DNA of 64,000 nt, from NCBI RefSeq assembly GCF_020144665.1, contig NZ_JAAHBQ010000036.1, positions 370-64,369 on the forward strand. The letters run 5' to 3'. The first letter of the stretch is position 1; the number at the start of each line of letters is the position of its first letter. Both the position numbers and the translations under genes were made by a program. Shown here one piece after another: positions 15,126 through 38,506 of this stretch. The stretch comes from Oscillatoria salina IIICB1. GTDB taxonomy: Bacteria > Cyanobacteriota > Cyanobacteriia > Cyanobacteriales > SIO1D9. The notes beneath the pieces were generated by a model. The model had not been told where the DNA came from. It worked only from the letters and a program-made list of their open reading frames with translations, and ran no database searches.

Positions 15126-18069
<2,944 letters not shown>

Positions 18070-21353: not shown

Positions 21354-22202
21354 ATGAGTATTGCCTGGGAAAATTCAACGAATAAAGGAACTTCAATGTT
21401 AAAGCTTATCCATCAATTTCAAAGCGAATTACTTTTTAAGGATAATTATCTCAATTGGTTTTTCGCGCCATCTTTAATCGACTCTCTTCAAAAAAAACCT
21501 CCCAATATTGACGAACTAGAAGTCTTTCAAAGAATTGCTTATTGGTACATCCTTGTTAGAGAAAAGTACGGTGATGAAGTAATTGAAGCCTCAATTAAAG
21601 CTGGATGTAAGCAGCTTCTTCTGCTAGGTTCTGGTTATGATACTAGATTTTTTCGTCTGGCTTCTATTCAAAATAACTCAGTTAAAACTTTTGAGATTGA
21701 TTTACCGGAGACTATTAATGATAAAAAGAAATGCTTAATTGCCAAATTAAAAATTATTCCTCATGGTTTGTCGCTCATTTCTCTCGATCTGAATAAAGAT
21801 AATCTCAACAGCCTTGTTGACTATGGCTTTGAAAGTGAAATTCCCACAATCTATATTTGGCAAGGAGTTAGCTACTATTTAACCCAAGAAAGCATTGATA
21901 AAGTTTTGGATTATATCAAAAAGCAGATGACCCCTAATTCGGTGTTTGTTTTTGACTGTTGTTCGCCGCTAATGACATTTAAAAACGATCGAGTTCCCGG
22001 AATAAATTCTAATATCGAGCGACTTGCTGAAATCGGGGAACCCTATCGTTTTGGTATGTATAGCGATGAAATGGAATTGTGGTTAAGAGAGAAAGGTTTT
22101 CAAAATATACAAATTTTACAACAAAATGATTTAGAGGAAAGGTTTCTTGAAAGACGAACCTTACCAGATAATATGTGGTATGTAGTCACCATTAAAGCAT
22201 AG
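21354..22202 (+). CDS. Class I SAM-dependent methyltransferase, PPM1/LCMT (TIGR00027-like) family
   Basis: 282 residues. The fold is that of leucine carboxyl methyltransferase-like enzymes, which in bacteria methylate small-molecule carboxylates or hydroxyls. Visible motifs: LLLLGSGYDTRFFRL near residues 88-102 (SAM site; GxGxDxR), TFEIDLPETINDKK near 112-125 (acidic ribose contact), and PTIYIWQGVSYYLT near 163-176. A GAGGA site precedes ATG 21354. It lies 205 bp after the second shell gene on the same strand; that gap contains an inverted repeat (AACCCTG, CAGGGTT near 21264-21287), so co-transcription with geoA is uncertain. It may modify a secondary metabolite, but no substrate can be named. 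No evidence links it to the C-methylation used for 2-methylisoborneol. Confidence 0.82.
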   Translation: MSIAWENSTNKGTSMLKLIHQFQSELLFKDNYLNWFFAPSLIDSLQKKPPNIDELEVFQRIAYWYILVREKYGDEVIEASIKAGCKQLLLLGSGYDTRFFRLASIQNNSVKTFEIDLPETINDKKKCLIAKLKIIPHGLSLISLDLNKDNLNSLVDYGFESEIPTIYIWQGVSYYLTQESIDKVLDYIKKQMTPNSVFVFDCCSPLMTFKNDRVPGINSNIERLAEIGEPYRFGMYSDEMELWLREKGFQNIQILQQNDLEERFLERRTLPDNMWYVVTIKA

Positions 22203-22571: not shown

Positions 22572-25500
22572 ATGAAAAAAGCGGAATTAAACAAGTGCTA
22601 TCGTTTTGGCATAGTTAATATGACAGCTATTGTAGGCACGATACAAGCAATTTGCGTCGGTGCGGCGATCGCACTCTGGACTAATTCTGCTTCCGCACAA
22701 CTTGTCCCTGATAACAGTTTAGGAGAGGAAAGTTCGCGGGTACAAAGAAATGCAAACATCAATAATCGGTTAACCGATTTAATTGAAGGAGGAGCAATTC
22801 GCTATGAAACTCTCTTTCACAGTTTCTCAGAATTTAATGTTAATCAGGGACAACGAGTTTATTTCGCTAACCCTGCTCAAATTGAAAACATTCTTACTCG
22901 CGTCACTGGAAGTAATCACAGCGAAATTTTGGGAACTTTAGGCGTAGTTGGAAAGGCAAATCTCTTCTTAATTAATCCTAACGGAATTATTTTTGGTCCA
23001 AATGCGAGTTTAGATATTCGAGGCTCATTTGTAGCTAGTACCGCAAATAGTTTTGTTTGGGATAATAATCTTGAATACAGTGCGACTAACCCCCAAGCGC
23101 CACCATTGTTAAGAGTTAACCTTACCCCAGGTTTACAATATGGTACGAGACAACCTGGAACTATTATTAATTCAGGACGATTAGAAGTAGGAAAAAATTT
23201 AGCTTTACTGGGCGGTAACGTCTTCAGTAGCGGATTTTTAGCTGCTCCTCAAGGTAATCTTACCATCGCCTCTGTACCTAGTTATGCACGGGTAAATTTA
23301 ACTCCAGAATTAGGCTTAGAAAGCATTTCTCTTCTCAGTTTACAGCCGGATGTAGCTGGAGGAGACGTAAGCGTCAAAAACGCGATCGCGCAAACAGCAA
23401 CCTTACGAGCAGAAAACAATTTAATTTTAACAGAAGCTCAGTTAGCAACCGCAGGAAATTTGTCTTTACTCGCTGGAGAAAATGTCCAAATACGCGATAC
23501 AGTCAATCATCCTTTCATCGCTTCAGCCGGAGAAAATCTCATTATTCAAGGTAACACAGGTATCGAGATTTTCGCTTTAAATCACCCCGAAAGCGGCTTA
23601 TTTTCCGGTGGAGAAATGATTTTGCGGAGTGCTAATCCAGTTAGAGGAGATGCTCATTATTGGAGTGGTGGCGGTTTTCGCATCGAGAAAATAGACGGTA
23701 GTTTAGGAAATTTATCTAGTCCTTTTGACCCTGTAATTCGTTCCTTCGGAGATGTTAGTTTTGATTCATATATTGGCGCATCTTTGCATATTTTAGCGGC
23801 AGGAAAAGTTGAAATACTTGGTTTTATTCAAATTACCGGGGCAGATCCTCTTCAAGGTATCGTCGAAACAGTGACTTTATCTGATGGTAATATTATAGCA
23901 ATTAATGGTCAAATTGAACCAACTTTAGATATTCGTGCCGGAATGAATCCGGCGGCAATTGGCGTACCAGAAATTAGTAATTTGGGCGGGACATTTTTCA
24001 ATTCTTTTCTGATTCCTAGCTCACCTAATTTAACAAATACTCCTACTAGTGCCGATATTAATCTGGGTACGATCGCCTTTACTGATAACAATTTTAACAC
24101 TCTCGCAGGACGAGTTTTACTTACTAATCAAGATCGAGCTAATCCTACTCTAACTGGAGATATTCAAGTTAATGCTACCATCGGTAATTTAGTTCCCGAA
24201 TTAGGAGATTTTGCCTTAGTTACTGGTGGCAATGTTACTATTGACTCTCGCGGTGGCGTAACTTTAAATGGAGTAGTTACAACTTCGGGAATTAGTGGCG
24301 ATGCAGGTAATTTTACTATTCTTGCTAATGAGAATATTTCAGCGATAGATACAATTACCGCAAGTGTGAGTGGTAATGGCGGACAAATCTCGTTTTTGAG
24401 TAGAAATGGTAGCATTAATACAACTAATGGTACTTTAGTTTCGGCTGCAAATAGTGGTAATGGCGGCAAAATTGAGTTAACCGCAAGTGGAGATATTTTT
24501 ACCGGAAATTTGTTTAGTTTTAATGGCGATTTTGCAAGTTTGCCAACTAATTTAGACAATATTTTTTTGTTTGACAATTTACCAACTAACGGCGCAATTG
24601 GTAACGGTGGAGAAATTGCAATTACCAGTAGTAATGGTGCAATCAATACTACAGCCGGAGAAGTAGTTTCTGCTTCTAGTAGCGGTAACGGAGGTAAGAT
24701 TTTTCTTGATGCTAATAATAGTTTGACTGCGGCTAACATAATTACTGCTGGTGAAATCAATGGCGGCGTAATCAATCTTATTAGTAATAATGGTGTAATT
24801 GATACTGTTAATGGTAATTTGTTTTCGGCTGCGAATAACGGTGATGCCGGGAAAATTAGTTTAACAGCAAATAGTAATATTACTACAGCAAATATTGTAA
24901 GTTCTAGCGGAAATTTAGTTGAGTTAACTAGCGAGTTTGAGAGTAGTTTTTTACCCGATTTTTTTTCTTCTCCCAGTATAAGTGGTAACGGTGGAGAAAT
25001 TATTATTTCCAGTAGTAATGGTGCAATTAATACCACAATTGGAAACGTGGTTTCTGCATCGGTTGATGGTAATGGGGGCAATATTTCTTTTAGCAGTAAC
25101 GAAAATATTGCTACAAGTGACGTAATTTCTAGCAGTATTGCTGCTAATGGTGGTGCAATTCAAATAGTTAGCCAAAATGGAGAACTTGACTTGACAGCAG
25201 GAAGTTTAATTTCGGCTACAAATGGTGGTGATGGTGGGAAGATTGAATTAAGAGCGAGGGGAAATATATCCACAGGAAATATTTTTTCTACTAGCGGTAA
25301 TTTAGCCGAGTTAGGTGCTAATTTTGAGCTAGATTTCTTATCAGATGGTTTGAATTTCAATAACGATCTGGAAATTGGTAATGGAGGAGAAATAGAAATT
25401 ATTAGCGATAATGGTGCAATTGATACCACGGGAGTTAATTTAATTTCTCTTGCAGCTAATCGAAACGGTGGCAAAATTACTCTTGATGCAATGGGAGATA

Positions 25501-28148
25501 TTAATTTAGGTAATCTCATTTCTGGTAGCGGTAACTTGGAAGAAATTATAACTATTTTAAATACGGGGAATATAGCTCTTTTGGGCTTGACAAATAGCAG
25601 CAAAAATGGTAATGGTGGAGAAATAGAAATTATTAGTAGAAACGGCGATATCGCTACAAGCGCAGGTTTGTTGTTTTCGGGTTCAACTAATGGTGACGGC
25701 GGTAATATTTTCCTGACTGCACCCGGTAATATTACCACAGCAAACATCTTTTCTATTAGTAATAATGGTAACGGTGGGCGAGTGGAAATCACCAGTGAAA
25801 ATGGGCTAATTGAAACCAGGGCGAATATTGTTTCTACTTCAACAATAGCTAACGGAGGCGAGATTCTTTTAACTACTGCTGGCGATATCTTTGCTGGTAA
25901 TTTAATTTCAGGTGGAAATGAAGGTAATGGCGGTCAAATTGAACTAATTAGTAAGAATGGTGAAGTTAACTTGACAAACTTGTTTATAGCTAGTTCTTTA
26001 GTTGGCGAAGCAGGTCAAGTTTCAGTTATTTCTGAAGGAAATATTAACGCCGACACAGCAATTATTAATACTTTTGGTAAAACCGCCGGGGGAGCAATTG
26101 AACTTAGAAGTAACAATGGTACAATTAATGTAAATTCTAGCATCATTAATTCCGGAGGTTCTGCAAGAGATATTAGTCAATTTCCTATTTTAGCTGAGAT
26201 TGATTTACCAACACTGCAATTATCATCGCAATTACAAGATGGTGGTGCAATTAAAATATTTGGTAGTGAAGGAATTAATTTAGATACAGTTTTAATTAAT
26301 GCTTCTGGTGGTACTGGTAGCGAAACAGGTAGATCGGGAGCAACCACTTTTGAGAGTAACGAAACTATATTTTTTAACAATACTATCTTGGATAACGAAA
26401 CTTTTATCGGAGCTGGAAACGAAATTAATCTTAATGCAGAAAAAGTAATTTTATCAAGAAGTGCGATCGTCAGTGATTCGCGGACAGATATCGGTAGCAA
26501 TGGTCGCAGTAGCGATATTAATATTCATGCAGTGGAAGTAACGTTAAGTGAAGGTAGTGGAATTATTGTCCAAAACCGGAGCAATAATCCTGGTGGTAGT
26601 TTAACAATTAATACCGAAACTTTGTCAATATTTGAGAATTCCATAGTTTCGACGACAACTGATACTCTGTTTCCGGGTGGGAGAGGTGGTGATTTAACGA
26701 TAAATGCTACTGATTTTATCTTGTTAGACGGTAGTAGCGCCGATTTTGAGTTAGGAATCAACTTATTATTAATAAATTTCCCTTTAGAGGAAAGAGAATT
26801 ACTCACAGCCGCGATCGCTAGTAGCACTCTTGGTGAAGCCGATGGTGGCACAATTGTCATTAATACCCCAGAATTGACAATCAAAAACGGAGCCGGAATT
26901 CTTGCTGCTTCAGCAAATCGCGGTGATGGCGGTAGTATTATTATTAATGCTAACCAGATTCAATTAAGCGGTACTTCTGCTAATCAAGTTATTCCTAGCG
27001 GCATTTCTGTTGACACTGTCTTCCCCGATTTTAGTGGGGCTACAGCCGGAGATATAATTATCCAAACTAACCAATTAACTCTTACTAATGGTGCAGTTAT
27101 TTCGGCTTCTACTACCAGTGATTCTCCAGGAGGAGATATTGAAATTCAAGCCGATCTAATCCAACTGCAAGGGACTTCTGCTGACGGAGAAATTCGCAGT
27201 GGAATTCGCGCTCAATCATTTGCTGAGGGAAATGCTGGAAGTATCATAGTTAAGGCGGAAAATGTCTTTGTTGTAGATGAGGGAATAATTGCTGTTAGTA
27301 GCGATACCGAATCTAAAGAGGTAGTTAATCTTCTGGCTAGAAGTCAGCAAATTTTGGGATTTTTAGAACTATTTGTTTCTGGCGTTTTCTCTGCTTTAGA
27401 CATTGAAATAAGTGCCGGTTCCGGAGATGCGGGAATAGTATCGATTGACGCTGAAAATATACTTTTAGATGAACGAGGTGCAATTATTGCCATTACTTCT
27501 TCTGGTGAAGGAGGTAATATTAGCTTAGACGTTGACGATCTAGTTCAGCTTCGACGTAATAGCTTAGTTTCAGCTACGGCTGGGGGTACGGGAAACGGCG
27601 GTAATATTGATATAAATGCTGAATTTGTGATTGCAGTTCCGGCAGAAAATAGCGATTTAACTGCTAATGCTTTTGCGGGTAATGGTGGTAATATTAACAT
27701 TAATGCGACCGAAATATTCGGTTTAGAATTTCGTCCGGGAATTAGCGATCGCAGCGATATCACTGTTAGTTCTGAATTGGGTATCGATGGTACAGTTAAC
27801 TTGAATACTCCCGACATCGATCCCAGTCGCGGCTTAACCGAATTTTCTGAAGAATTACCTAATCCAGAAATTGCACAAAACTGTCAAACAATTGGCGGAC
27901 AAACTTCTACCAGTAGCTTTATTCCTGTGGGACGTGGCGGTCAACCTGCTAGTCCCGATCGACCATTAAATAATAACAGTGTTGATGTACCGTGGACAAA
28001 TCCAAATTTTGAGTCATCAAGTTCGTCATCAAATCAAATTGTGGAGGCAAAAGGATGGGTAAGATTAGCAAATGGTGACGTGGTTTTTACTAACAATACT
28101 CCTAATTTATCTTTGCCAGGGTGCATGATTCAAGGTTCTCAAAGATGA
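22572..28148 (+). CDS. TpsA-type filamentous hemagglutinin exoprotein
   Basis: A very large secreted protein (1858 aa) of a two-partner secretion system, probably an adhesin or surface protein. A long signal peptide ends near residue 43 (WTNSASAQ). The TPS secretion domain follows (about 45-290) with FNVNQGQRVYFANP near 88-101 and the NPNGIIFGP motif near 135-143. Most of the rest is predicted beta-helix rich in G-N-G-G-x-I units (597-1157 most regular). The C-terminus (about 1770-1858) has the conserved cyanobacterial tail with Cys residues (IAQNCQTIGG, WVRLANGDVVFT, LPGCMIQ). No enzymatic or toxin domain and no CdiA-like motif was seen. Its stop overlaps the tpsB start (ATGA), so the partners are translationally coupled. 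No breaks. Confidence 0.93.
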   Translation: MKKAELNKCYRFGIVNMTAIVGTIQAICVGAAIALWTNSASAQLVPDNSLGEESSRVQRNANINNRLTDLIEGGAIRYETLFHSFSEFNVNQGQRVYFANPAQIENILTRVTGSNHSEILGTLGVVGKANLFLINPNGIIFGPNASLDIRGSFVASTANSFVWDNNLEYSATNPQAPPLLRVNLTPGLQYGTRQPGTIINSGRLEVGKNLALLGGNVFSSGFLAAPQGNLTIASVPSYARVNLTPELGLESISLLSLQPDVAGGDVSVKNAIAQTATLRAENNLILTEAQLATAGNLSLLAGENVQIRDTVNHPFIASAGENLIIQGNTGIEIFALNHPESGLFSGGEMILRSANPVRGDAHYWSGGGFRIEKIDGSLGNLSSPFDPVIRSFGDVSFDSYIGASLHILAAGKVEILGFIQITGADPLQGIVETVTLSDGNIIAINGQIEPTLDIRAGMNPAAIGVPEISNLGGTFFNSFLIPSSPNLTNTPTSADINLGTIAFTDNNFNTLAGRVLLTNQDRANPTLTGDIQVNATIGNLVPELGDFALVTGGNVTIDSRGGVTLNGVVTTSGISGDAGNFTILANENISAIDTITASVSGNGGQISFLSRNGSINTTNGTLVSAANSGNGGKIELTASGDIFTGNLFSFNGDFASLPTNLDNIFLFDNLPTNGAIGNGGEIAITSSNGAINTTAGEVVSASSSGNGGKIFLDANNSLTAANIITAGEINGGVINLISNNGVIDTVNGNLFSAANNGDAGKISLTANSNITTANIVSSSGNLVELTSEFESSFLPDFFSSPSISGNGGEIIISSSNGAINTTIGNVVSASVDGNGGNISFSSNENIATSDVISSSIAANGGAIQIVSQNGELDLTAGSLISATNGGDGGKIELRARGNISTGNIFSTSGNLAELGANFELDFLSDGLNFNNDLEIGNGGEIEIISDNGAIDTTGVNLISLAANRNGGKITLDAMGDINLGNLISGSGNLEEIITILNTGNIALLGLTNSSKNGNGGEIEIISRNGDIATSAGLLFSGSTNGDGGNIFLTAPGNITTANIFSISNNGNGGRVEITSENGLIETRANIVSTSTIANGGEILLTTAGDIFAGNLISGGNEGNGGQIELISKNGEVNLTNLFIASSLVGEAGQVSVISEGNINADTAIINTFGKTAGGAIELRSNNGTINVNSSIINSGGSARDISQFPILAEIDLPTLQLSSQLQDGGAIKIFGSEGINLDTVLINASGGTGSETGRSGATTFESNETIFFNNTILDNETFIGAGNEINLNAEKVILSRSAIVSDSRTDIGSNGRSSDINIHAVEVTLSEGSGIIVQNRSNNPGGSLTINTETLSIFENSIVSTTTDTLFPGGRGGDLTINATDFILLDGSSADFELGINLLLINFPLEERELLTAAIASSTLGEADGGTIVINTPELTIKNGAGILAASANRGDGGSIIINANQIQLSGTSANQVIPSGISVDTVFPDFSGATAGDIIIQTNQLTLTNGAVISASTTSDSPGGDIEIQADLIQLQGTSADGEIRSGIRAQSFAEGNAGSIIVKAENVFVVDEGIIAVSSDTESKEVVNLLARSQQILGFLELFVSGVFSALDIEISAGSGDAGIVSIDAENILLDERGAIIAITSSGEGGNISLDVDDLVQLRRNSLVSATAGGTGNGGNIDINAEFVIAVPAENSDLTANAFAGNGGNININATEIFGLEFRPGISDRSDITVSSELGIDGTVNLNTPDIDPSRGLTEFSEELPNPEIAQNCQTIGGQTSTSSFIPVGRGGQPASPDRPLNNNSVDVPWTNPNFESSSSSSNQIVEAKGWVRLANGDVVFTNNTPNLSLPGCMIQGSQR
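24361..26040 (+). repeat. Beta-helix coding repeats inside the exoprotein gene
   Basis: Residues about 597-1157 consist of roughly a dozen units of the form GNGGxIxIxSxNGxIxT followed by a GGKIxLxAxGxI half. Several alternate units carry a longer insertion of about 25 residues (SSGNLVELTSEF, TSGNLAELGANF, SGSGNLEEIITIL). The pattern is diverged at DNA level, so it is old rather than a fresh expansion. The regularity creates long spurious antisense open frames here. Confidence 0.85.
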
Positions 28149-30031
28149 GTTTAAATGATGATGATTTAAGCAAAAAAAATTTAGAAACTACCATCAGGTT
28201 AAGCTTGGTAGAAAATCAGTTGCCAAGTCTCAAGAAACTACGGTTATTTTCTACTCTAGTTTACCTAATTTTAGGAATTAGTTGGAATTCGGTAGCATTT
28301 GCCGAAAGTCTAGATGAATTATTGAATAACAAAACTCGGTTGTCAGTACCTAATTTTCCAGAAATTTTTGCTCAAACTCCGAACCCATCAGACTTGCGTC
28401 CACCTACTCCAGAAATACCTGATTTCCCTGATGAGATTGAACCTCAGCAACCTCCAGAAACTCCTTTAGAAGTTCCCACACCATCGGAACAATTGCCCGA
28501 ATCTTTACCAACAATATTAGACAAAATTACGGTTACGCAATTTAATTTTGAAGGGAACACAGTTTTTAGCGATGAAGAGTTAAGAAACCAAGTAACAGAA
28601 TATACTAACCGGGAAATTTCTTTTGCGGAATTACTCGAAGCGCGATCGCGCATTACGCAACTTTATCTGGACAATGATTATCTAACTTCTGGTGCTTATA
28701 TTCCTTTGCAACAAAGGCTTTCCGGAGGAAGAGGAGAAGTTACTATCCAAATAGTCGAAGGAAGTATCTCAGATATTCGCATTCAAGGGACAGAAAGATT
28801 AAACTCAAGTTATATCCGCGATCGCCTGCGTCTGGGTACGGCTACTCCTCTTAATAAAAATCGCTTAATTCAAGCTTTGCAACTATTACAATTGGACTCG
28901 CGAATTAGTAATATTTCGGCGGAACTTTCTCAAGATATAGAACCAGGTAAAAGTATTTTAGATATTCGGATTGAAGAAGCAGATACTTTTAATACTTTTG
29001 CCTCAATAAATAATGGACGCGCCCCCAGTGTCGGGAGTTTCCGTCGTGGTGGCGGTTTAGTCGAAGAAAACTTGTTAGGTTTTGGCGATACCCTCTTTTT
29101 TAGTTACAATAATACCGATGGTAGCGATAACTTTGATGTTAGCTATACTTTACCCGTAAATCCTCGCGACGGTACGTTAAGTTTTGGCTACGGAACAACT
29201 TCTAGCGATGTAATTGAACCACCTTTCGATGATTTAGATATTGATGCCGAATCGCGTTATTATCAGTTAAGTTTCCGTCAACCAATTTGGCGATCGCCAA
29301 CCGAAGAATTTGCTGTTGGGATTACTGCTTCGCGTCAAGAAAGTGAAACCTCGCTGTTAGATATTCCTTTTCCTCTCTCTCCTGGGGCAGATGACGAAGG
29401 ACGCATTCGAGTCTCCGCCCTGCGCTTTTTCCAGGATTGGCGACAACAGGGATCTCGTTATGTTTATGGAGTGCGATCGCAGTTTACCGTCGGCATTGAT
29501 GCTTTTGATGCCACAATTAATGATAATGCCCCCGACAGTCAATTTTTTGCTTGGCGAGGACAAGGACAATTAGTTTATTTATTAGGAGAAAATAATGGCA
29601 ATCCACCTTTAGCTACCACAATGGTAGTTCGCGCTGACGTGCAATTTGCCGCCCAAGAATTACTTTCTTTAGAACAATTTGCATTAGGAGGTTTTAACAG
29701 TATTCGCGGTTATCGTCAAGATGCTTTATTAACCGACAATGGTGCATTTTTGTCCGCAGAAATACGTTTCCCAATAGTGAGAATTTCCGAGTGGGAAACA
29801 GCAATCCAACTAATACCTTTTCTCGAAATTGGTACAGGTTGGAATAACGGCGCAGACAATAATCCCGACCCTAGCACGTTAGCCGCGATCGGTTTAGGAT
29901 TACAATTAATTCAGTCCGATCGTTTTAGCGCTCGTTTAGACTGGGGTATTCCGCTTATAGAGTTAGATTCTACTGAAAGAACATGGCAAGAAAACGGCAT
30001 TTATTTTTCCGTCGAATTCTATCCTTTTTGA
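28145..30031 (+). CDS. TpsB-type outer-membrane transporter (ShlB/FhaC/HecB family)
   Basis: The outer-membrane partner that recognises and exports the exoprotein. I place the start at ATG 28145, which overlaps the tpsA stop as ATGA; an in-frame ATG at 28121 is possible. A signal segment (about residues 38-55) is followed by a proline-rich linker (about 85-120) and a POTRA domain (ITVTQFNFEGNTVFSDEEL to GGRGEVTIQIVEGSISDI, about 130-225). A 16-strand barrel follows to the end, with the channel-region motif GGFNSIRGYRQD near residue 525 (the conserved VRGY-type box) and a C-terminal aromatic residue (YPF) as expected for BAM-inserted barrels. The linker before POTRA is typical of the family. 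Its end overlaps the next gene by 49 bp. Confidence 0.93.
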   Translation: MSLNDDDLSKKNLETTIRLSLVENQLPSLKKLRLFSTLVYLILGISWNSVAFAESLDELLNNKTRLSVPNFPEIFAQTPNPSDLRPPTPEIPDFPDEIEPQQPPETPLEVPTPSEQLPESLPTILDKITVTQFNFEGNTVFSDEELRNQVTEYTNREISFAELLEARSRITQLYLDNDYLTSGAYIPLQQRLSGGRGEVTIQIVEGSISDIRIQGTERLNSSYIRDRLRLGTATPLNKNRLIQALQLLQLDSRISNISAELSQDIEPGKSILDIRIEEADTFNTFASINNGRAPSVGSFRRGGGLVEENLLGFGDTLFFSYNNTDGSDNFDVSYTLPVNPRDGTLSFGYGTTSSDVIEPPFDDLDIDAESRYYQLSFRQPIWRSPTEEFAVGITASRQESETSLLDIPFPLSPGADDEGRIRVSALRFFQDWRQQGSRYVYGVRSQFTVGIDAFDATINDNAPDSQFFAWRGQGQLVYLLGENNGNPPLATTMVVRADVQFAAQELLSLEQFALGGFNSIRGYRQDALLTDNGAFLSAEIRFPIVRISEWETAIQLIPFLEIGTGWNNGADNNPDPSTLAAIGLGLQLIQSDRFSARLDWGIPLIELDSTERTWQENGIYFSVEFYPF

Positions 30032-32841
30032 GGCTAATAAAATCTCAGTTAGCTTCTTGGTTATCTAAAAAAGTAGCTTATTTATCTTTACTTTTAAGCC
30101 TTTTTGTGCTAGCTGCTTTCTTGCCAGTAATCGCTCAAGAAACAGTTTCACAAAATTCGTCTTCTACTACTATTTTAATTAAACAAGCAGAAATCAACTA
30201 TAACCTGGGTGAATATCAGCGAGCAGCAGAATTATTGCAACAAGCCACAAATGAATTAGAAAATAATCGTCAACTGCAAGCTATTGCTTTAACTAATCTT
30301 TCCTTAGTTTACCAGCAACAAGGAGAATGGCAGTTAGCCCAAGCAGCAATTAATGAAAGTTTGACTATTTTACAGCAAGATACTAAAAATAATTTAGCCT
30401 TATTAGCACGAGCCTGGGAAGTCCAAGGCAAACTTCAACTAGCAATTGGAAAAGCCAGCGAAGCTATTACAAGTTGGCAAAAAGCTATAGACAACTACGA
30501 AAATATTGAGGATAAAGAAGGTAAAATTCGGACGAAAATTCATCAAACTGTTGCTTTACAAGAATTAGGTTTGTATCGCGAAGCTTTCAAACAACTCACT
30601 ACAATTAAACCAGAAGAGATAGAAGCTAATTTGGTTCGAGGGGCTTGGTTACGAAATTTAGGTAATATTGTGCGTGTAGTCGGTAATGTTAACGAAATTG
30701 AAAGTATTTTACCAACAAATATTTGCCAGTTAAAGGAAGAAGAATCGACAGATTACTTAAAAATATCTGAGTGTTTATTACGAAATAGTTTAGCAACTAT
30801 AGAAATAAGCAATTCGCCACAACTTAAAGCCGAAGTTTCACTCGACTTAGGTAATACTTATACGGCGATGTATCAACGCGCTAAAGACGCATTTCAGCGT
30901 GCAGTAACGCAAAGTAATAATCCAAACAAACAATGGGAATTAATTAAACAAGCTATCGAATATTACGAAAAGGCAGAAAATACTACTAATTTACTGCTTA
31001 CGCTTCTCCAAGCCCAAATTAATCAACTAAGTCTTTTGATTGATTTCCAGCCACAGTTAGCTAAGATAAAAGATGAATTAGTTCGGCAAGAAGCAACAAC
31101 TTCTATTCACAGACAAATTGAGCAAATACCAGATATTTTCGCAGAAATAAATAATTTATCTATTAGTAAATCAGCAATTTTTACTCGTATCAACCTAGCT
31201 AAAAGTCTGATTAATCTCGAAAACTATTCACAACCAGAATTAATCGAACAACTTTTATTGCAAGCTATCGAAGAAGCGAGAACTTTAGCCGACGTGCGAA
31301 CCACAGCATACGCTCTTGGTACTCTTGGTAAGCTATATGAAGAACAAAAACAATGGGAACAAGCTTTAGAGAAAACCCAAGACGCTATTAGACTAACTGA
31401 AGAAATTCAAGCACCAGAGCTAGCATACCAGTGGGAGTGGCAGTTGGGAAGGTTGTTGCGAAATCAAGGAGAGATTGAGAGTGCTGTTGCTGCTTACGAA
31501 GTTGCTGTTAAAAACCTAGAACTGTCTCGTCAAAATTTTCTCATTCTTCAATCAGAAGAAAGATTTACTCTCCAAAATTCTCTAAATACTTTTTACCGAG
31601 AATTAATTGCTTTATTATTACCAAAAGACGACCTAAATCCCGACCAGGAAAACCTTCAAAAGTCTATTTATTATATAGAGTCACTCCAATTAGCAGAATT
31701 AGAGAATTTCTTAAAATGTAATTTAACAGATATTGAAACCGTACAATTAGAACGTAAAGATAGAGAAGATGAGCCAGTAGCACAGTTAATGGAGCGAACG
31801 AAACTATTTTTAAACAAAGCTCCAAAAACGGCAATAGTATATTCAGTAATTTTGCCAGACCATTTAGTAACTATACTTCAACTACCTAATGATAACAAGC
31901 TAGTTTATAGTTCTTCTAATAAAGATAGTTCAGCAGTTCAAAAATTAATTAGCGAGATTGATAATGTCCTAAAAAATACTTTGGCTATAAATGAAATTAA
32001 AAGAAAAGTTAAAGAGTTATACGATATTTCTTTACAAGGAGTTGAGCAAGAATTAAAAAGAGCAGGAATAGAAACTTTAGTTTTTATACTTGATTCTTCT
32101 TTGAGCCGTATACCAATGGCAAGTCTTTACGATGGACATCAATATTTAGTAGAAAATTACGCTTCTGTTTTAACTTCTAGTATTCAGTTTCTCAAACATA
32201 AACAGTTTACGAATAATCAATTAAAAGCTTTGATTGTCGGAGCTATAAAACAAAGACAAAATTATGATTCTTTGGAAGAAGAAGTTCCACAACAAATAAA
32301 TAAAATTAAAGAAAATCTATCCAACTATGACATTTTAGATAATGGTAAATTTACGAAAAAAGCTCTTCGAGAAAAATTTCGATCTTCAGTTTACGATCTA
32401 GTTCATATAATTACACATGGTCAATTTAGTTCCGATCCCAAAGAGACATATATTATTACTGATGATGATTCTCAAGAATTCAACGAATACTCTATCAATA
32501 TCAATGAATTCAGTAATTTACTTCAAACTAGAGACCAAAGTAAGTTGATAAACCTACTTTTTTTTAGTGCTTGTGAAACGGCATCCGGTGACAAGCGAGC
32601 AGTTTTAGGTATTGCAGGAACGGCAATCAGGTTTGGTGCAAACGCAACCATAGCAACTCTCTGGAATGTAAAACAAGAAGAAACTACTGATTTTGTAGAT
32701 GAGTTTTACAGCAATTTAGTAAAAAAAGAGTTAAATATAGCACAAGCACTAAGGCAAACACAAATAACCATGATCGAAAGTGATAATTTTGAAATACGTC
32801 ATCCTCGCAACTGGGCATCATTTATTATGGTAGGTTACTAA
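29983..32841 (+). CDS. TPR-CHAT protein: exported caspase-like protease candidate
   Basis: 952 residues. A hydrophobic segment (about residues 32-51, ending PVIAQE) looks like a signal peptide or anchor, so the protein is probably periplasmic or membrane-tied. TPR-like helices occupy about 60-530 (ALTNLSLVYQQQGEWQLAQAAI-type units; another set near 440-510). The C-terminal CHAT domain (about 650-952) has the expected His in VHIITHGQFSS near 805 and Cys in FFSACETASG near 864, then GIAGTAIRFGANATIATLW. This is the Cys-His dyad of caspase-clan CHAT proteases. The start overlaps tpsB by 49 bp, so it belongs to the tpsA-tpsB operon. It may cleave or regulate the exoprotein or its transporter (inference). 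Similar genes commonly neighbour cyanobacterial TPS loci. Confidence 0.9.
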   Translation: MARKRHLFFRRILSFLRLIKSQLASWLSKKVAYLSLLLSLFVLAAFLPVIAQETVSQNSSSTTILIKQAEINYNLGEYQRAAELLQQATNELENNRQLQAIALTNLSLVYQQQGEWQLAQAAINESLTILQQDTKNNLALLARAWEVQGKLQLAIGKASEAITSWQKAIDNYENIEDKEGKIRTKIHQTVALQELGLYREAFKQLTTIKPEEIEANLVRGAWLRNLGNIVRVVGNVNEIESILPTNICQLKEEESTDYLKISECLLRNSLATIEISNSPQLKAEVSLDLGNTYTAMYQRAKDAFQRAVTQSNNPNKQWELIKQAIEYYEKAENTTNLLLTLLQAQINQLSLLIDFQPQLAKIKDELVRQEATTSIHRQIEQIPDIFAEINNLSISKSAIFTRINLAKSLINLENYSQPELIEQLLLQAIEEARTLADVRTTAYALGTLGKLYEEQKQWEQALEKTQDAIRLTEEIQAPELAYQWEWQLGRLLRNQGEIESAVAAYEVAVKNLELSRQNFLILQSEERFTLQNSLNTFYRELIALLLPKDDLNPDQENLQKSIYYIESLQLAELENFLKCNLTDIETVQLERKDREDEPVAQLMERTKLFLNKAPKTAIVYSVILPDHLVTILQLPNDNKLVYSSSNKDSSAVQKLISEIDNVLKNTLAINEIKRKVKELYDISLQGVEQELKRAGIETLVFILDSSLSRIPMASLYDGHQYLVENYASVLTSSIQFLKHKQFTNNQLKALIVGAIKQRQNYDSLEEEVPQQINKIKENLSNYDILDNGKFTKKALREKFRSSVYDLVHIITHGQFSSDPKETYIITDDDSQEFNEYSININEFSNLLQTRDQSKLINLLFFSACETASGDKRAVLGIAGTAIRFGANATIATLWNVKQEETTDFVDEFYSNLVKKELNIAQALRQTQITMIESDNFEIRHPRNWASFIMVGY

Positions 32842-32879
32842 TTTGTATTTGTCAAAAACAATGACTATTAATGACTATC

Positions 32880-33680
32880 TTAGCTACAACATTCAGTTAA
32901 TTTTTCTTCTGCTAATTCTTCTAAGTCAATATCTGGATCTTTCAAAAATTCAGTTAATATTGCTTTACCTTTTTGAGGATCGAGAGGCATGATTTCTGTC
33001 AATATTGTAGTTAAACTTTCATGCCATAAACCATCTTTCGCATAAATTATTAATCGCTCTTCTGGTGTTCCTGTAAGTGAAGATATATCATCAAAGTTAG
33101 GAATAACTCTTTGATACTTACCAGTTACATAAATATTTTCTTGTTGCGAATTGCAAATAACAGTTAAAGACCAAAAATAATCTTGATTAAGCTGTAAAAG
33201 ACCTACTGTTGGTGGTAGCGAAATTCTAATAATACCTGGAGTCCCAGTTAAGGAAAACTGTTCGCGATAAACTTCTTCATCTTGATAGTCTACTAATTGA
33301 AATTCTACCGAAAGACCTGAAGCATTATAAGGAACATAAAACCAAAAGATAGGATTTTCTTGAGATGTTAATGCACGCAAAGAATCATTTTTAAAGCCAG
33401 GTACTAAAGCGGTGAGAGGTTTTTCTACAGGTGAACATTTCTCCTCGCCGTAGTCTGGTTTTGTTGTTCTATCTCCGGGTGCATCGTCTTTAGCAGTGAG
33501 ATCGCGAGGTACGAAATCTAAGCCAATGCTATCGTTTTCTTGGGCTTGAGCAACAAAGTTATTAGTTCTCGCTTTAATCCTGTATTGAGTGTGAACTAAG
33601 CTTATTTGTTCTGGTAAATAATTAGAGCCTAATAAACTAGCAATCAAAGTAATTTGTAAATGACGTTTAATAAATTTCAT
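32880..33680 (-). CDS. DUF928-family secreted protein
   Basis: 266 residues with an N-terminal signal-like region (MKFIKRHLQITLIASLLGS) and the DUF928 pattern: a GDRTTKPDYGEEKCSP-like glycine/cysteine segment near residues 68-84, LTALVP near 88, NPIFWFYVPY near 107-116, then a beta-rich stretch ending before YQRV. The last 60 residues form a helical bundle with conserved spacing (RLIIYAKDGLWHESLTTI, about 208-225). DUF928 has no known function; it often occurs in cyanobacteria beside CHASE2/CHAT and TPS genes. It converges on the TPR-CHAT gene with a 38-bp gap and is the last gene of the minus-strand operon that starts with the sigma-like factor. Probably an envelope accessory protein. Confidence 0.85.
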   Translation of the reverse strand: MKFIKRHLQITLIASLLGSNYLPEQISLVHTQYRIKARTNNFVAQAQENDSIGLDFVPRDLTAKDDAPGDRTTKPDYGEEKCSPVEKPLTALVPGFKNDSLRALTSQENPIFWFYVPYNASGLSVEFQLVDYQDEEVYREQFSLTGTPGIIRISLPPTVGLLQLNQDYFWSLTVICNSQQENIYVTGKYQRVIPNFDDISSLTGTPEERLIIYAKDGLWHESLTTILTEIMPLDPQKGKAILTEFLKDPDIDLEELAEEKLTECCS

Positions 33681-33715
33681 AGTCTAATTTAGTGAAGATA
33701 AATTAATTATTTTTT

Positions 33716-36163
33716 CTATTTTAATGTCATGTATCCTTTGACAGATATACCAGTTAGTAGCATAGCTATAACTGTAGGAACTAATGGTATCCAACCTCCA
33801 TAATAACTCAAGAAAAACCAGCACGAGCTATATAGCATAACTAAACTTATACTACCAAAGAAAACTAAATGTACTATTGATTTGGTATTTTTCTGTTCGA
33901 GTAAATTAACTTTTAAAACAATAAAACTTACGATCAAAGACCAACTCCAAATCCAAAGGAAATCTCCTGGCAAATTCCAAGTCCAAATTAAAGGTAATTC
34001 GCCTTCAACTATGCTAATAAGATGACTTACCATTTGAGCTTGAAGAAATAAGTTAGGTAAAGGTAATTCATTTTTATAAGGTGTCTTAAAAGTATTATTG
34101 CTGCTTCCATCTCTACCAATTAAAACAATTTTGTTTTTTACATCCTCAAGAGAGAGTTGGTTATTGAAAACATCTGTAACGGATTTGACTTTAGCAATAT
34201 CCTGAAGATAATTGTGATAAGGACGATAGTTAAGCATTACTTGAATACCTTTGTCTACATCCGGTTCGAGTGTTTTACCTGAATTTGTATTTGAGCGATG
34301 ATATCCACCTCTATGAAGTTTTAAAGGAGCGAAAATATAATTGCCTATTTTAATAAACTTATCTTCTTTTCGATCATTTCTTTGAATATTTTCGGCTTTC
34401 AGGTAGCTAAGTGCTACCTTGAGGCTAAAAGCTTCAACTTCTTGTTGCGCTTTACAGGGTTTTGGATCTGGTAATGTCATTAACAATAGATGACGACGAA
34501 CGACTTGATCGCGTGGATTATGTACAACATCGCCAAAACCAATCCTTTCTGAAGGAACATCAGTAGGAGCATATTTGGCTCCATCTTTTTCAGTTTCACC
34601 ACTACATAATGCAATGAAGGAACCTTTTTGGAAGATAGATTTGAGATTTTTATATAAAGGATCTATACTTCCTTCCCGGTGAATATTTAAACCAATAACT
34701 CTGGGCTGATACTGTTGTAATTTTACTAAAAGGCGTTCTAAATTTTTATCGGATAAACTTCTTGCGCCTTGTCCTGTAGATTCTGGAGGTTGTTGTAGAA
34801 GTTTGAGATCTTCTTTAGTCACGCGGACAACTAAAATTCGATCGTCTGGTTCTTTAATAGGTCGCTGTTGCATGAGATGGTCGTAAGCAATAAGTTCCAA
34901 AGTTTGTAACTTTCCTTGCCATCTTCCCCACATAATCAAGCTTGTAATGATTAAGCTAGCAATAATTGCTACTCGAAGTTTACGCCATCTGGATCTGTTT
35001 TTTCGACGATCATTTTTCTTAGTTACTGTATGTTTTCTATGCGGCAGGCTAAGTAGCGAATTTTCCTCACTGATACTACTCAACTCTTCCCAAGTAGGGG
35101 GCAAAGTAGCGGGATTTTGGCAAATAACGGGCAACCAACTGGCGCAGGGAAACTCGCGCTCCAAGGCTCGAAGCCGATCGCGTGCCGATCGCACCGCCAG
35201 ATAAAATGATTCTCCACTCGCAAAGGCGGTGAGGAAATACTTCAGAAACTCTTGAGCGACGCGATCGGGGACGAGTTCCCGCATGACAATCGTCAGGGGG
35301 ATCTGGCGATCGCCAATCCGTTGTGCTAGCCCTAATCCGTCGCAAGAGTTGAAAATCGCTAACTGCAACCCTCTTTCTACAGCTTTTTTTAAGCCTATCC
35401 ACAATTCATCTGTGGTAATAAATTCATCGGGATTGATATAAATTCGACCTTCATCTCCCTCAGTCAAGCTATGCCCAGCAAAAAAGATAATATCCCAATC
35501 TTGTTCCCAAAGGCGATCGTTTATTTCCAAATAACTTGGTTCCACTAAAAATGTTACTTCTGCATTCGGCAACTTCTTCAATAATTGTCGGTCTTTTTGA
35601 GTATCAATTCCTTCCTGGTGACCGAGAATTGCTAAAATTCTAATTCGTAATTTACCTGTTATTTGCTGAAAACGATCGGTGCGTCTGTATTCCGGCGGAC
35701 TTAAACCAACCTCTGCTTTTCCATAACTCTTCACAAAATCCCAGAGATGCCAAGGAAGCTTTTGTAATTGACGATCCTCAGTCCGAATTAATACCCGAAT
35801 TTCCTCTTCCCGACTTAACTCAGAACGTAATTCTCGATCTATTTCTCGAAAACTCTCAGCTTCTAACCAATCCTTAAACTCGGCTTCCAATTGTTTTGCT
35901 GACTCTTGACACTCTCTCAAATTTATCGCCCCTTCATTAATAATTTCCGTTGGTTTAATGCGATAAGGCGCTCCCAAAGGGCGATATTTTTCTAACCAAT
36001 GTTCTTCTAAGTGGGTGGCTAATTCCGGATTTGCAGGTAACTCCTTTGTCATTTCTAGATCGGGGCGCATTCCTTCAACCCCAATTTCTAGATGCACTCG
36101 AAAGCCTTGCTCTTCGAGATTACCTTCTAATGTTAATACGACTAACTTACCCATCATCGCCAC
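33716..36163 (-). CDS. CHAT-CHASE2 transmembrane protein
   Basis: 815 residues combining a cytoplasmic caspase-like domain with an extracytoplasmic sensor. The N-terminal 110 residues are a conserved cap. The CHAT domain (about 125-345) has His in IIFFAGHSLTEGDEG near 229 and Cys in AIFNSCDGLGLA near 273. A basic linker (RKNDRRKNRSRWRK) precedes a membrane helix near 397-412. CHASE2 follows (about 418-715; LELIAYDHLMQQRPIKEPDDR near the start is the family hallmark), then two or three membrane helices to the end. In CHASE2 proteins the output domain is usually a kinase, cyclase or phosphatase at the C-terminus; here the output would be the N-terminal CHAT. It starts at ATG 36163 or, two codons later, 36157. 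It lies 35 bp upstream of the DUF928 gene in the same operon. Confidence 0.9.
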   Translation of the reverse strand: MAMMGKLVVLTLEGNLEEQGFRVHLEIGVEGMRPDLEMTKELPANPELATHLEEHWLEKYRPLGAPYRIKPTEIINEGAINLRECQESAKQLEAEFKDWLEAESFREIDRELRSELSREEEIRVLIRTEDRQLQKLPWHLWDFVKSYGKAEVGLSPPEYRRTDRFQQITGKLRIRILAILGHQEGIDTQKDRQLLKKLPNAEVTFLVEPSYLEINDRLWEQDWDIIFFAGHSLTEGDEGRIYINPDEFITTDELWIGLKKAVERGLQLAIFNSCDGLGLAQRIGDRQIPLTIVMRELVPDRVAQEFLKYFLTAFASGESFYLAVRSARDRLRALEREFPCASWLPVICQNPATLPPTWEELSSISEENSLLSLPHRKHTVTKKNDRRKNRSRWRKLRVAIIASLIITSLIMWGRWQGKLQTLELIAYDHLMQQRPIKEPDDRILVVRVTKEDLKLLQQPPESTGQGARSLSDKNLERLLVKLQQYQPRVIGLNIHREGSIDPLYKNLKSIFQKGSFIALCSGETEKDGAKYAPTDVPSERIGFGDVVHNPRDQVVRRHLLLMTLPDPKPCKAQQEVEAFSLKVALSYLKAENIQRNDRKEDKFIKIGNYIFAPLKLHRGGYHRSNTNSGKTLEPDVDKGIQVMLNYRPYHNYLQDIAKVKSVTDVFNNQLSLEDVKNKIVLIGRDGSSNNTFKTPYKNELPLPNLFLQAQMVSHLISIVEGELPLIWTWNLPGDFLWIWSWSLIVSFIVLKVNLLEQKNTKSIVHLVFFGSISLVMLYSSCWFFLSYYGGWIPLVPTVIAMLLTGISVKGYMTLK

Positions 36164-36267
36164 CTTAACTCTTTACTAGGAAAACTGAGAATTACGGACG
36201 AATTTAAAATAATTACCAACCATCTAAATCCTAAACTCATTTTTTTTCATTCCGCAAGTCTCTTTTT

Positions 36268-36310
36268 AGGTTCAGATTAAGTTCAAATTAGGTTCAAATT
36301 AAGTCTAAAC
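36268..36310. promoter_or_regulatory. Four 11-bp direct repeats upstream of the CHAT-CHASE2 gene
   Basis: On the plus strand the units are AGGTTCAGATT (36268), AAGTTCAAATT (36279), AGGTTCAAATT (36290) and AAGTCTAAAC (36301), an exact 11-bp period. They lie 105-147 bp upstream of the CHAT-CHASE2 start and overlap the stop codon of the DUF1822 gene. Spacing of one helical turn is how OmpR/PhoB-type response regulators bind tandem sites; cyanobacterial Pho boxes share this 11-bp period but have a different consensus. An internal regulated promoter is a plausible reading. Confidence 0.5.
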
Positions 36311-37252
36311 TATAAACTCTTCGGTCAAGATCGCATCACCTAAGTTTACTTGGACGCTAAAAATTTCTCCTGTTTCAGCAGTAAACTTAAACTTAATGCT
36401 CTTACTACTTCTAGCTTGACTTTTCATGACTTCTTCTCCTTTGCTATCCAGTATACATAGCTGCAAGTTATCTGGTAAATAAGTATTTTCACCAGTAGGA
36501 GATATCTGTACCCAAATTGCCATTTCTGGTATTGCTTTTGATTCTAATCCCACTAATAAAGCAATTCGTTCGCCAGCATTTTCTAACTCTAAAACTTTAC
36601 CTCGCTTAATGCCATCAGGACTATTGTTGACTAATTTTTTATTCAACACTCCTGGACTACGAAAATTAAAGGCTAGTTGGTTTAATTGTGGCTGACAAAG
36701 TTCTTCAATTGTTTGCCAACTAGCAGTAAATATATCTTCTATCCAGTCGCTTAAATGTACTACGGGTGGCAATTTGTCAATTAATTCATCTAGCGGTTTA
36801 AACTGACTAAGTAGTAGCTTAGCTGTAGTCACTTTGGCAACAAAGCCAACGATAGTAGCTTCAGTTAAAGCTTGATTCATCTGCACTGCTATATAGCCAA
36901 TTCGATCTGAGCATACTTCGAGTGGTATTTCGCAAAATTCCGCTTCAGGTAGGACAAAACGACACTCTAATTTACCAATATCTTTTACCTCTAAATCAGC
37001 AATATTTCCTAGGGTTTGCATTGCTGGATGCCAACTATCGCTAGCAGCTAAATTTGTCTCAATCCCTAAACATTTGAGATGGAAATTTACTGCTAATACC
37101 GCTAAAGTATTGAGATAAACTTCTTTTCTTTTTTGCGGTTGTGAGTGAAAGCTACGAAACTTTTGGGCTTGCTCGTGGTCTTTGATTGTAATTGGTACGA
37201 CGAGCGGATAATTTTCTTTGTTTAATGAATAATCTGTTTGGTATTTCATCAT
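36305..37252 (-). CDS. DUF1822-family protein
   Basis: I choose the start at ATG 37252 (MMKYQTDYSL), 26 nt after the sigma-like gene's stop codon. A longer version from 37324 would overlap that gene by 46 bp. The protein then has 315 residues. DUF1822 proteins occur almost only in cyanobacteria and have no known biochemical role. Seen here: a helical N-terminal half (AQKFRSFHSQPQKRKEVYLNTLAV-type region near 30-60), VHLSDWIEDIFTASWQTIEEL near 168-188, and a beta-rich C-terminal domain (ERIALLVGLESKAIPEMAIWV, then LPDNLQLCILDSKGEEVM). No signal peptide or membrane helix is seen, so it is probably cytoplasmic. Its fixed position after a sigma-like factor suggests a regulator or partner such as an anti-sigma factor, but that is only inferred from context. 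Confidence 0.82.
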   Translation of the reverse strand: MMKYQTDYSLNKENYPLVVPITIKDHEQAQKFRSFHSQPQKRKEVYLNTLAVLAVNFHLKCLGIETNLAASDSWHPAMQTLGNIADLEVKDIGKLECRFVLPEAEFCEIPLEVCSDRIGYIAVQMNQALTEATIVGFVAKVTTAKLLLSQFKPLDELIDKLPPVVHLSDWIEDIFTASWQTIEELCQPQLNQLAFNFRSPGVLNKKLVNNSPDGIKRGKVLELENAGERIALLVGLESKAIPEMAIWVQISPTGENTYLPDNLQLCILDSKGEEVMKSQARSSKSIKFKFTAETGEIFSVQVNLGDAILTEEFIV

Positions 37253-37278
37253 TTTTCTGGTTCTGGTGGGAACTGTAT

Positions 37279-37944
37279 CTATTGAAAGTGTTCTTGAAAT
37301 AAAGGAGCGAATTTTTTTAAGCAACGCTGATAAAACCGACTTAGAGTGGACACACTAATTGACAAACTAGAGCTTATTTCTTCCCAGGAATAACCGTCTG
37401 TTCGCCTGAGAAAAATAGATTGAAAATTAGCTCCTGGATGAGAACGGATATGCGTTTCTCGAAAAATACCCTCTGAATCTTCTTCAACAAAATGTTTGAC
37501 TTCTTCGGAAAAAAAATAATTTTGTTGTTCGTTTACTTCTAGAGAATCATTTATTTCTAATTCATCTATACTTAACCTTTTAATTTGTGCTGGTTCTATC
37601 CGCTGATGTGCAATTGGCATGAATTCGCGGCTTGCTTGAATAAAAAATCTTTTAAAGTAAGGTTTTATCCACTGTAATACTTCCCCTTTTTCAGGATTAT
37701 AATTGTTAATGTTTTGACAAATATAGAGAAAAAGTTGTTGTTTAGCTTCGCTGAGAATTTCCTCATAAAAACCTTTAAAACGACCTGGATAAAGACAGGG
37801 AAGTACGCGAGGGCGTTGCATAACCCTAATTAGTTTATCCAAGGCTTTGCGGCGCTTTCTGCTTCCTGGAGAGTACCTCTGGACTTCTAAAGCTAGCTCT
37901 TTTAAGTATTGGTCTAGTTCGCTCATATCATTGGGAATATACAC
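37279..37944 (-). CDS. Sigma-70-like factor (ECF-type, cyanobacterial DUF1822-associated)
   Basis: 221 residues; the start may be ATG 37944 or 37926 (MSELDQYL). The N-terminal half has a region-2-like helical part (about 30-125: SRKRRKALDKLIRVMQ, FYEEILSEAKQQLFLYICQNI, NPEKGEVLQWIKPYFKRFF). A variable acidic linker (about 140-165) precedes a region-4-like helix-turn-helix (FLRRTDGYSWEEISSSLSIS, then STLSRFYQRCLKKF, about 180-215). It resembles alternative sigma factors that sit ahead of DUF1822 and CHASE2 genes in filamentous cyanobacteria. It is the first gene of a minus-strand operon (sigma, DUF1822, CHAT-CHASE2, DUF928) and could drive that operon or the converging secretion genes. Promoter recognition is not predictable from sequence alone. 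Confidence 0.82.
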   Translation of the reverse strand: MYIPNDMSELDQYLKELALEVQRYSPGSRKRRKALDKLIRVMQRPRVLPCLYPGRFKGFYEEILSEAKQQLFLYICQNINNYNPEKGEVLQWIKPYFKRFFIQASREFMPIAHQRIEPAQIKRLSIDELEINDSLEVNEQQNYFFSEEVKHFVEEDSEGIFRETHIRSHPGANFQSIFLRRTDGYSWEEISSSLSISVSTLSRFYQRCLKKFAPLFQEHFQ

Positions 37945-38059
37945 CCTTCACCTCAGTTCAATCTCAATTGCGTTGCTGACCTCTATTAAGTTCTCGGTTT
38001 TCCAGGCTGGATTTTGTGCCAATTTACTAAAAGTTTACGAAAGTTTATAAAGCCTAGGC

Positions 38060-38095: not shown

Positions 38096-38228
38096 TTCGC
38101 GATCGCCAACTGTAAAGTTATGTAAAAAGATCGAGCTTTTGCACAAAAGTCACCCCTCAAAAACGAGTGCTAAGTAGAGGGTTGCGTAAATTTACTCATC
38201 GCCTCACCACTGAGAGTAGGTATTTACC

Positions 38229-38423
38229 ATGATTTTGATTCGCGAATTGGTCAAACAAGCTTTAGCCACTGGCTATCTAACTCTGGAAACAGAACAACAA
38301 CTGAGACAGTTGCTACAGAGAACCAAGTATGGAAGAGAAGACTTAGACGCTTTTATGTGTTTACAAGAAGCGGCGATCGCGGGTCAAGTCCAGCAAGAAT
38401 CTCGCCAATTATTCGGTTCATAG
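38229..38423 (+). CDS. Small conserved cyanobacterial protein
   Basis: 64 residues, MILIRELVKQALATGYL at the N-terminus, then LETEQQLRQLLQRTKYG and EDLDAFMCLQEAAIAGQV. Predicted all-helical, no signal peptide or membrane segment. I recognise the pattern (xxxVxQALxTGYLTxExExQLRxLL) as a widespread cyanobacterial small-protein family of unknown function. Start ATG 38229 follows GTAGGTATTTACC. It is divergent from the sigma-like gene and 84 bp upstream of the PEP-CTERM cluster; no functional link is evident. Confidence 0.75.
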   Translation: MILIRELVKQALATGYLTLETEQQLRQLLQRTKYGREDLDAFMCLQEAAIAGQVQQESRQLFGS

Positions 38424-38506
38424 CCACTTCGAGATATTTTTCTAACACCAAACATCCTTATTTTCTTCGATTTAAATCTCACCAAAAAGTTAGCCTGACA
38501 ACTACC

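Follow-up and report, generated by a model that had tools for sequence, protein, structure and literature searches.

A CHAT protease-sigma locus of Oscillatoria salina IIICB1 pairs CHASE2 with DUF928 and may connect the cell surface to transcription

EACC2 systems are built on a protein that joins a constant N-terminal domain and a caspase-like CHAT domain to a variable C-terminus, which can be CHASE2 (Kaur et al. 2021, PMC8195603). The neighbours at EACC2 loci are genes for an extracytoplasmic function (ECF) sigma factor and a DUF1822 protein, and autopeptidase activation with a sigma output has been proposed (PMC8195603). CHASE2 is a very common extracytoplasmic sensor domain, found for example in the receptor Dgc2 of Leptolyngbya boryana, and its ligand has been reported as unknown (PMC10581220). 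A CHASE2-DUF928 cluster of Nostoc punctiforme was reported to be species-specific among seven surveyed (PMC5587647). Here, we analyze a locus at positions 22,572-37,944 of a 64,000-nt stretch of Oscillatoria salina IIICB1 DNA (contig NZ_JAAHBQ010000036.1; the window), in which genes for a sigma-like protein, DUF1822, a CHAT-CHASE2 protein and DUF928 face a two-partner secretion (TPS) gene pair and a second CHAT gene.

The tpsA, tpsB and TPR-CHAT genes on the plus strand converge with the minus-strand genes, which are read in the order sigma-like gene, DUF1822, CHAT-CHASE2 and DUF928, and 38 bp separate the two halves. tpsA and tpsB overlap by ATGA (4 nt), and tpsB and TPR-CHAT overlap by 49 bp. 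A preliminary description had read these seven genes, their order, families, overlaps and convergent gap from the DNA, and our open reading frame (ORF) and family searches bore out all of them. It had also regarded the families as clustering without assigned function. The clustering is indeed recurrent, but the half with the sigma-like, DUF1822 and CHAT-CHASE2 genes is of the EACC2 kind already described, as its probable EACC2 N-terminal domain, its intact CHAT dyad and its neighbouring sigma-like and DUF1822 genes indicate. TPS, CHASE2 and EACC2-sigma-DUF1822 are already known kinds, and the envelope side, consisting of DUF928, TPS and exported CHAT, is added here. The most specific relation, which the preliminary description missed, is that DUF928 and CHASE2 stay paired even where the output domain is a different one.

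What does the CHASE2 domain of a protease detect? DUF928 is a good candidate. We collected the neighbourhoods of sigma relatives from 60 genomes and annotated them with in-house profiles that were built up starting from the proteins of the window. This sigma-anchored set contains 49 EACC2-CHAT proteins near a sigma gene, 24 with and 25 without CHASE2. DUF928 lies within 3 kb of 20 of the 24 proteins with CHASE2 but of 1 of the 25 without it (Fisher 7e-9), and the association extends to the exported CHAT protein (CHATx; ≤8 kb, 16/24 versus 3/25, 1e-4) and to TPS (≤12 kb, 10/24 versus 3/25, 0.025). In a phylum-wide set of 78 loci, chosen by similarity to the CHAT-CHASE2 protein alone and taking in Nostoc, Calothrix, Moorena, Oscillatoria, Lyngbya and others, DUF928 is the next gene downstream of the sensor in 64/69, DUF1822 lies upstream of the sensor in 54/68, and CHATx or TPS occurs within ~9 kb in 31 of the 46 loci with room. 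When 40 loci were sampled with DUF928 as the anchor, 23 had CHASE2 within 3 kb and 35 had CHASE2, CHATx, TPS or TpsB. Beside DUF928, 29 CHASE2 proteins are not of the EACC2 type, and their outputs include cyclase (12), GGDEF (7; EAL 6), HisKA (4), SpoIIE (PP2C) phosphatase (2) and Ser/Thr kinase (1). Because the outputs differ among the CHASE2 proteins beside DUF928, the sensor side appears to be constant and the output exchangeable. We therefore read DUF928-CHASE2, frequently accompanied by TPS and exported CHAT, as a probable fixed sensing unit to which different outputs can be attached, the protease-sigma cassette being one plug-in.

The two families also vary and diversify together. Copy numbers over the 60 genomes correlate between DUF928 and CHASE2 (rho 0.91; 0.85 after partialling genome size) and between TPS and DUF928 (0.89; 0.81 size-partialled); for DUF1822, taken as a comparison, the partial correlation with each of DUF928, CHASE2 and TPS is 0.27-0.32. 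The DUF928 and CHASE2 distance matrices correlate with an r of 0.645, compared with 0.356 (SD 0.048) for within-genome partner shuffles, none of which reached the observed value (0/5000). With the comparison restricted to non-EACC2 outputs, the observed value is reached by 15 of 5000 shuffles. The EACC2/other label requires no more than three changes on the DUF928 tree and likewise three on the CHASE2 tree.

Predicted topology separates the exported from the cytoplasmic proteins. The CHAT-CHASE2 protein matches CHASE2 with an E value of 1.6e-46 and CHAT with 3.1e-9, and the TPR-CHAT protein matches CHAT with 4e-50. The preliminary description held that both CHAT domains keep their Cys-His dyad and that one is cytoplasmic and tied to CHASE2 while the other is probably exported and tied to TPRs. 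The dyad residues are present in the former (His231 and Cys274; His 62/63 and Cys 63/63 in cytoplasmic-type relatives) and in the latter (His in ITHGQ and Cys in SACET; 67/67 and 67/67 in exported-type relatives). The predicted locations agree with our hydropathy survey, in which a hydrophobic N-terminus occurs in 1/112 EACC2 proteins and in 72/76 CHATx proteins (residues 32-50 in the window protein). The N-terminal 165 residues of the CHAT-CHASE2 protein, detected in 66 ORFs, probably represent the EACC2 domain of Kaur et al. (2021), as judged from the architecture. Orthology to the CHAT division protein HetF was rejected (NF045509, 21.9 bits versus a cut-off of 1200). DUF928 has a hydrophobic N-terminus in 124/150. 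Its Cys82/Cys176 pair is conserved in 139/156 relatives, and a class-specific Cys pair is retained by 111/112 CHASE2 domains of the EACC2 class; both pairs would fit extracytoplasmic disulfides.

Sequence searches of the PDB returned no homologue for DUF928 or the CHAT-CHASE2 protein. The structure model of DUF928 (pLDDT 78.6) consists of a beta-sandwich and a helical tail, and its PDB matches are weak Ig-like sandwiches (TM-score by query ≤0.3 among the 50 listed). Because these matches are weak, we claim no DUF928 function from the fold. Three loci (L163, L169 and L185) carry tandem DUF928 genes in a context without CHASE2, beside a protein of 557-559 residues that is transglutaminase-like in L163 and L169. 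The model weakly resembles Ig-like carbohydrate-, chaperone- and copper-binding sandwiches, and HLR1-like boxes at the sigma gene (see below) suggest a light/redox input. Both features would suit an arrangement in which CHASE2 responds to a small molecule or to light/redox stress and DUF928 is a co-regulated polysaccharide- or metal-binding envelope protein rather than a partner. However, DUF928 follows CHASE2 whatever the output, is nearly absent beside EACC2 proteins that lack CHASE2, and co-diversifies with CHASE2, and we consider this explanation rather unlikely. The proposal that DUF928 is a protein ligand or co-receptor of CHASE2, forming in filamentous cyanobacteria the constant core of a trans-envelope platform that monitors TPS exoproteins and the exported CHAT protease that goes with them and has interchangeable outputs, including a protease-sigma switch over a surface-protein regulon, is made tentatively, at somewhat less than even likelihood.

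The opposite half of the locus encodes a two-partner (type Vb) secretion system, as judged from its domains and gene order. Residues 42-275 of TpsA form a TPS domain (PF05860, E 2.7e-47), and the adjoining tpsB encodes a transporter with ShlB (PF03865, 4.9e-28) and POTRA_2 (PF08479, 3.5e-17) domains. The tpsB ORF is open from GTG 28121, and its best start is ATG 28145, which gives the ATGA overlap with tpsA. The TPR-CHAT protein was also compared with the PDB by sequence, and its match was a designed TPR chain alone. TpsA and TpsB are fused as a single polypeptide at six loci (L051, L066, L067, L068, L074 and L190), with TPS, TpsB and CHAT united in 2362 residues in L074. TPS-CHAT fusions occur at ten (L052, L054, L063, L064, L150, L153, L161, L171, L172 and L179). 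The C-terminal GRGG motif of TpsA is absent from all ten TPS-CHAT fusions (0/10) but present in 32/42 TPS proteins with a separate CHAT (p 1e-5), which is only suggestive of a CHAT docking site.

The two halves recur together. The genome of the window holds 29 CHAT matches, 9 DUF1822 matches and ~10 TPS loci, and it repeats the convergent layout twice, with an EACC2-CHAT-TPR protein on contig C38 (L051) and with a TPS-CHAT fusion that faces an EACC2-CHAT protein with a divergent CHASE2 (1.4e-16) on contig C57 (L052). Full clusters are also found in other families of the order (L066-L072, L076, L077, L086 and others). At some of them no separate tpsB could be recognised, and in L079 all cluster genes lie on one strand. 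The co-occurrence of the half-clusters in other genomes, on which the preliminary description had staked its interpretation, is therefore observed in the same genome, in other families and across filamentous cyanobacteria.

'Sigma' is the weakest of the family labels at this locus as far as profile matches indicate. The sigma-like protein matches region 4 at a sub-threshold E value of 1.3e-4 and the ECF superfamily model TIGR02937 at 1.3e-5, under the cut-off; region 2 gave no Pfam match, and the PDB gave no match by sequence. Its relatives occur in 39/60 genomes of the order. Hydrophobic N-termini are found in 0/86 sigma-like and 1/93 DUF1822 proteins. The mechanical start of the DUF1822 ORF is TTG 37324, and with the likely start at ATG 37252 it does not overlap the sigma gene. 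The AF2 model of DUF1822 (pLDDT 82) is alpha/beta in its N-terminal part and a beta-sandwich in its C-terminal part, and it has no PDB match at E 0.001 (best E 5e-3). A TPR protein was rejected as an identity for DUF1822, as the model has no TPR array. Two further loci (L208:6400-8976 and L221:130-2706) encode 858-residue proteins upstream of DUF1822 that have a C-terminal sigma-like domain preceded by a region with a P-loop-like GEPGAGKTTQ motif, and four sigma-DUF1822 operons (L104, L132, L134 and L136) have a CHAT protein of ~1600 residues in place of EACC2-CHAT.

Many of the sigma genes are preceded by a composite element, in which an inverted HLR1-like box is followed, usually after 14-15 nt, by GCRYAAAA-N16-GAKA. 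The sigma gene of the window has this element on the minus strand from 38051 to 37992, with the spacing seen at other loci. The upstream repeat, once considered as a sigma-specific -35 element, was dropped in this role since it matches the published HLR1 consensus for RpaB, KTTACAWW-N2-KTTACAWW (PMC13421787), and GCRYAAAA-N16-GAKA was kept as the promoter candidate. It differs from the J-box of SigJ (GGGaAtacT, PMC6495340), which was rejected as an identity. Of the sigma upstream regions, 25/73 hold an HLR1 match with ≤2 mismatches in reverse orientation to the gene, versus 47/1201 for other ORFs, and an RpaB-type light/redox input is possible. The strict promoter form is found in 16/73 sigma upstream regions, the set from which the motif was derived, in 4/43 tpsA upstream regions near EACC2 genes, in 0/33 other tpsA upstream regions and in 6/1190 other ORFs; the difference between the two tpsA groups is not significant (p 0.13). 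When three genomes were scanned whole, the pattern outnumbered its reversed control, and its sites were more often intergenic (21/29 versus 3/17) and 40-155 nt before an ORF (14/29 versus 1/17). Genes behind the motif include a further tpsA (G027:C22), exoprotein genes of the subtilase, RTX and cadherin-like types, and genes for PEP-CTERM proteins, ComFB proteins and BepA-like M48 proteases of the envelope, and the pattern supports a putative sigma-linked surface regulon. ComFB-family genes are preceded by GCRYAAAA-N16-GAGA sites in two genomes (L264, G000:C6; L287, G027:C77). Divergent from the window sigma gene, positions 38357-41267 hold an uncharacterised 358-residue ORF, which shares the HLR1-like boxes, and then two 279-residue ORFs, one with a weak PEP-CTERM match.

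Comparison across genomes establishes the composition, conservation, predicted topology, pairing and promoter pattern of the locus. On this basis, we propose, with roughly even confidence, that the locus links the envelope to transcription as a signalling module of the cell surface, running from DUF928-CHASE2 to a CHAT/sigma switch. Outside the inner membrane, DUF928 would serve as a ligand or adaptor and convey to CHASE2 whether the exoprotein has been secreted, matured by the exported CHAT, engaged or damaged, or in what state the exported CHAT is. CHASE2 would then activate the cytoplasmic CHAT protease, which may cut or alter DUF1822, a candidate anti-sigma or adaptor, and thereby free the sigma factor, or may act on the sigma factor itself. 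The targets of the sigma factor would be its own operon, which also stands under an RpaB-type light/redox box, and, by way of the GCRYAAAA-N16-GAKA promoter, a group of surface genes. In such a working logic, surface assembly or contact would be sensed and surface exoprotein expression adjusted.

Several points weigh against this signalling module. The sigma identification is weak at region 2, and no anti-sigma match was found for DUF1822 among the 50 PDB matches listed, so that DUF1822 as a known anti-sigma was rejected. The steps of cleavage, ligand binding and anti-sigma action are hypothetical. Linked genes that duplicate together would also co-diversify, so that the covariation shows a stable DUF928-CHASE2 pair without proving contact. 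The enrichment of GCRYAAAA-N16-GAKA before sigma genes is circular, given its derivation from these regions, and that this sigma factor reads the motif is inferred from its position there, through an argument from autoregulation only. In a 300-nt survey, tpsA matches came from four loci, of which three are related Nostoc loci and one is L086. The preliminary description had suggested that CHASE2 senses an envelope signal and releases CHAT activity and a sigma factor, which would control export or processing of the exoprotein. Of this chain, in which release, cleavage and control of secretion are hypothetical, a transcriptional link from the sigma operon to exoprotein genes has the composite promoter at sigma genes and some tpsA genes in its favour, but it is not supported for tpsA of the window, because the upstream region of this gene lacks the motif. 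Finally, no TPS half lies near 15 of the 46 sensor loci with room.

This last point would also be expected if TPS-CHAT and DUF928-CHASE2-EACC2-sigma were two independent adjacent modules, for example in a surface-variation island, with no signalling between them. The halves are convergent and not co-transcribed at most loci, and TPS-rich genomes are rich in many such families. Nevertheless, the CHASE2-specific association inside one protein family, the one-strand order of L079, the recurrences in the same genome, the size-corrected copy-number covariation and the promoter common to both halves at some loci make such independence improbable. A role in programmed cell death or immunity, in which EACC2-CHAT would be a suicide or counter-invader switch operated through CHASE2 and TPS a contact-dependent trigger or an unrelated weapon, is likewise unlikely, although EACC2-caspase proteins lie near conflict systems (PMC8195603) and other EACC2 C-termini at sigma and DUF1822 loci carry STAND/WD40 or TPR regions typical of such systems, because five proteins gave 0 PADLOC matches at E 0.01, most CHASE2 proteins linked to DUF928 have common second-messenger or kinase outputs, the genes marked by the promoter motif are those of exoproteins and envelope proteins, and the domain-family search found no toxin-like domain on TpsA.

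The coordinates of the features are given in Table 1. Outside the locus, positions 15817-22202 of the window encode a 750-residue terpene synthase, two SrpI-like type 2 encapsulin shell proteins with cNMP-binding domains and an LCM-family methyltransferase; the region looks like an encapsulin-packaged terpenoid locus, whose product is perhaps 2-methylisoborneol.

Table 1. Coordinates of genes, domains and putative regulatory elements in the window
Feature	Position	Strand	Description
tpsA	22572..28148	+	1858-aa two-partner-secretion exoprotein; N-terminal TPS domain, C-terminal GRGG motif
tpsB	28145..30031	+	POTRA and ShlB outer-membrane transporter
TPR-CHAT (CHATx)	29983..32841	+	Caspase-like protease, exported by prediction
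DUF928	32880..33680	-	PF06051, 4.3e-38; predicted extracytoplasmic beta-sandwich and helical tail
CHAT-CHASE2	33716..36163	-	EACC2-like N-terminus, cytoplasmic CHAT, transmembrane segment, CHASE2 and transmembrane helices in order
CHASE2 domain	33929..34939	-	Residues 409-745; class-specific Cys520/Cys570
DUF1822	36305..37252	-	PF08852, 6e-63; ATG 37252 is the likely start
ECF-like sigma gene	37279..37944	-	Region 4 weakly recognised
Putative sigma-operon promoter	37992..38019	-	GCACAAAA-N16-GAGA, 75 nt upstream of the sigma ORF
HLR1-like (RpaB-type) box	38034..38051	-	2 mismatches; 14 nt upstream of the GCACAAAA element
Second HLR1-like match	38109..38126	-	1 mismatch; intergenic region common with the divergent ORF at 38357

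If the proposed module is correct, it would give functions to DUF928, DUF1822 and the exported CHAT proteases and would suggest a route by which cyanobacteria that carry many giant surface proteins link their surface to transcription. Moreover, the constant DUF928 partner across output types makes the question of the CHASE2 ligand directly testable. We found no literature that joins CHASE2, CHAT and haemagglutinin in a search that reached few subscription papers. DUF928 and haemagglutinin or TPS are absent from the text that describes EACC2 systems (PMC8195603), whereas the CHASE2 subset here is tied to DUF928 and is often also found with TPS and exported CHAT; DUF1822, termed a TPR protein there, shows no TPR array in our model. 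The N. punctiforme cluster was reported as species-specific (PMC5587647), whereas CHASE2-DUF928 adjacency is recurrent over the phylum here. The tandem of TPS exoprotein and POTRA/ShlB transporter is the same as in FhaB/FhaC and HMW1A/B, but our locus adds a paired envelope sensor and an exported TPR-CHAT protease, which at some other loci is fused to TpsA or to TpsA-TpsB. With Dgc2-type receptors, the CHAT-CHASE2 protein has the extracytoplasmic sensor domain in common; in contrast to the other CHASE2 proteins of our survey, which have C-terminal outputs, it carries CHASE2 C-terminal to the protease, with DUF928 as a consistent partner. The logic of the proposed module may be likened to that of FecA-FecR-FecI, in which the state of the outer surface is passed to an inner-membrane sensor, an ECF sigma factor and surface genes; however, our locus has neither a TonB-dependent receptor nor FecR, and a protease switch is proposed for it.

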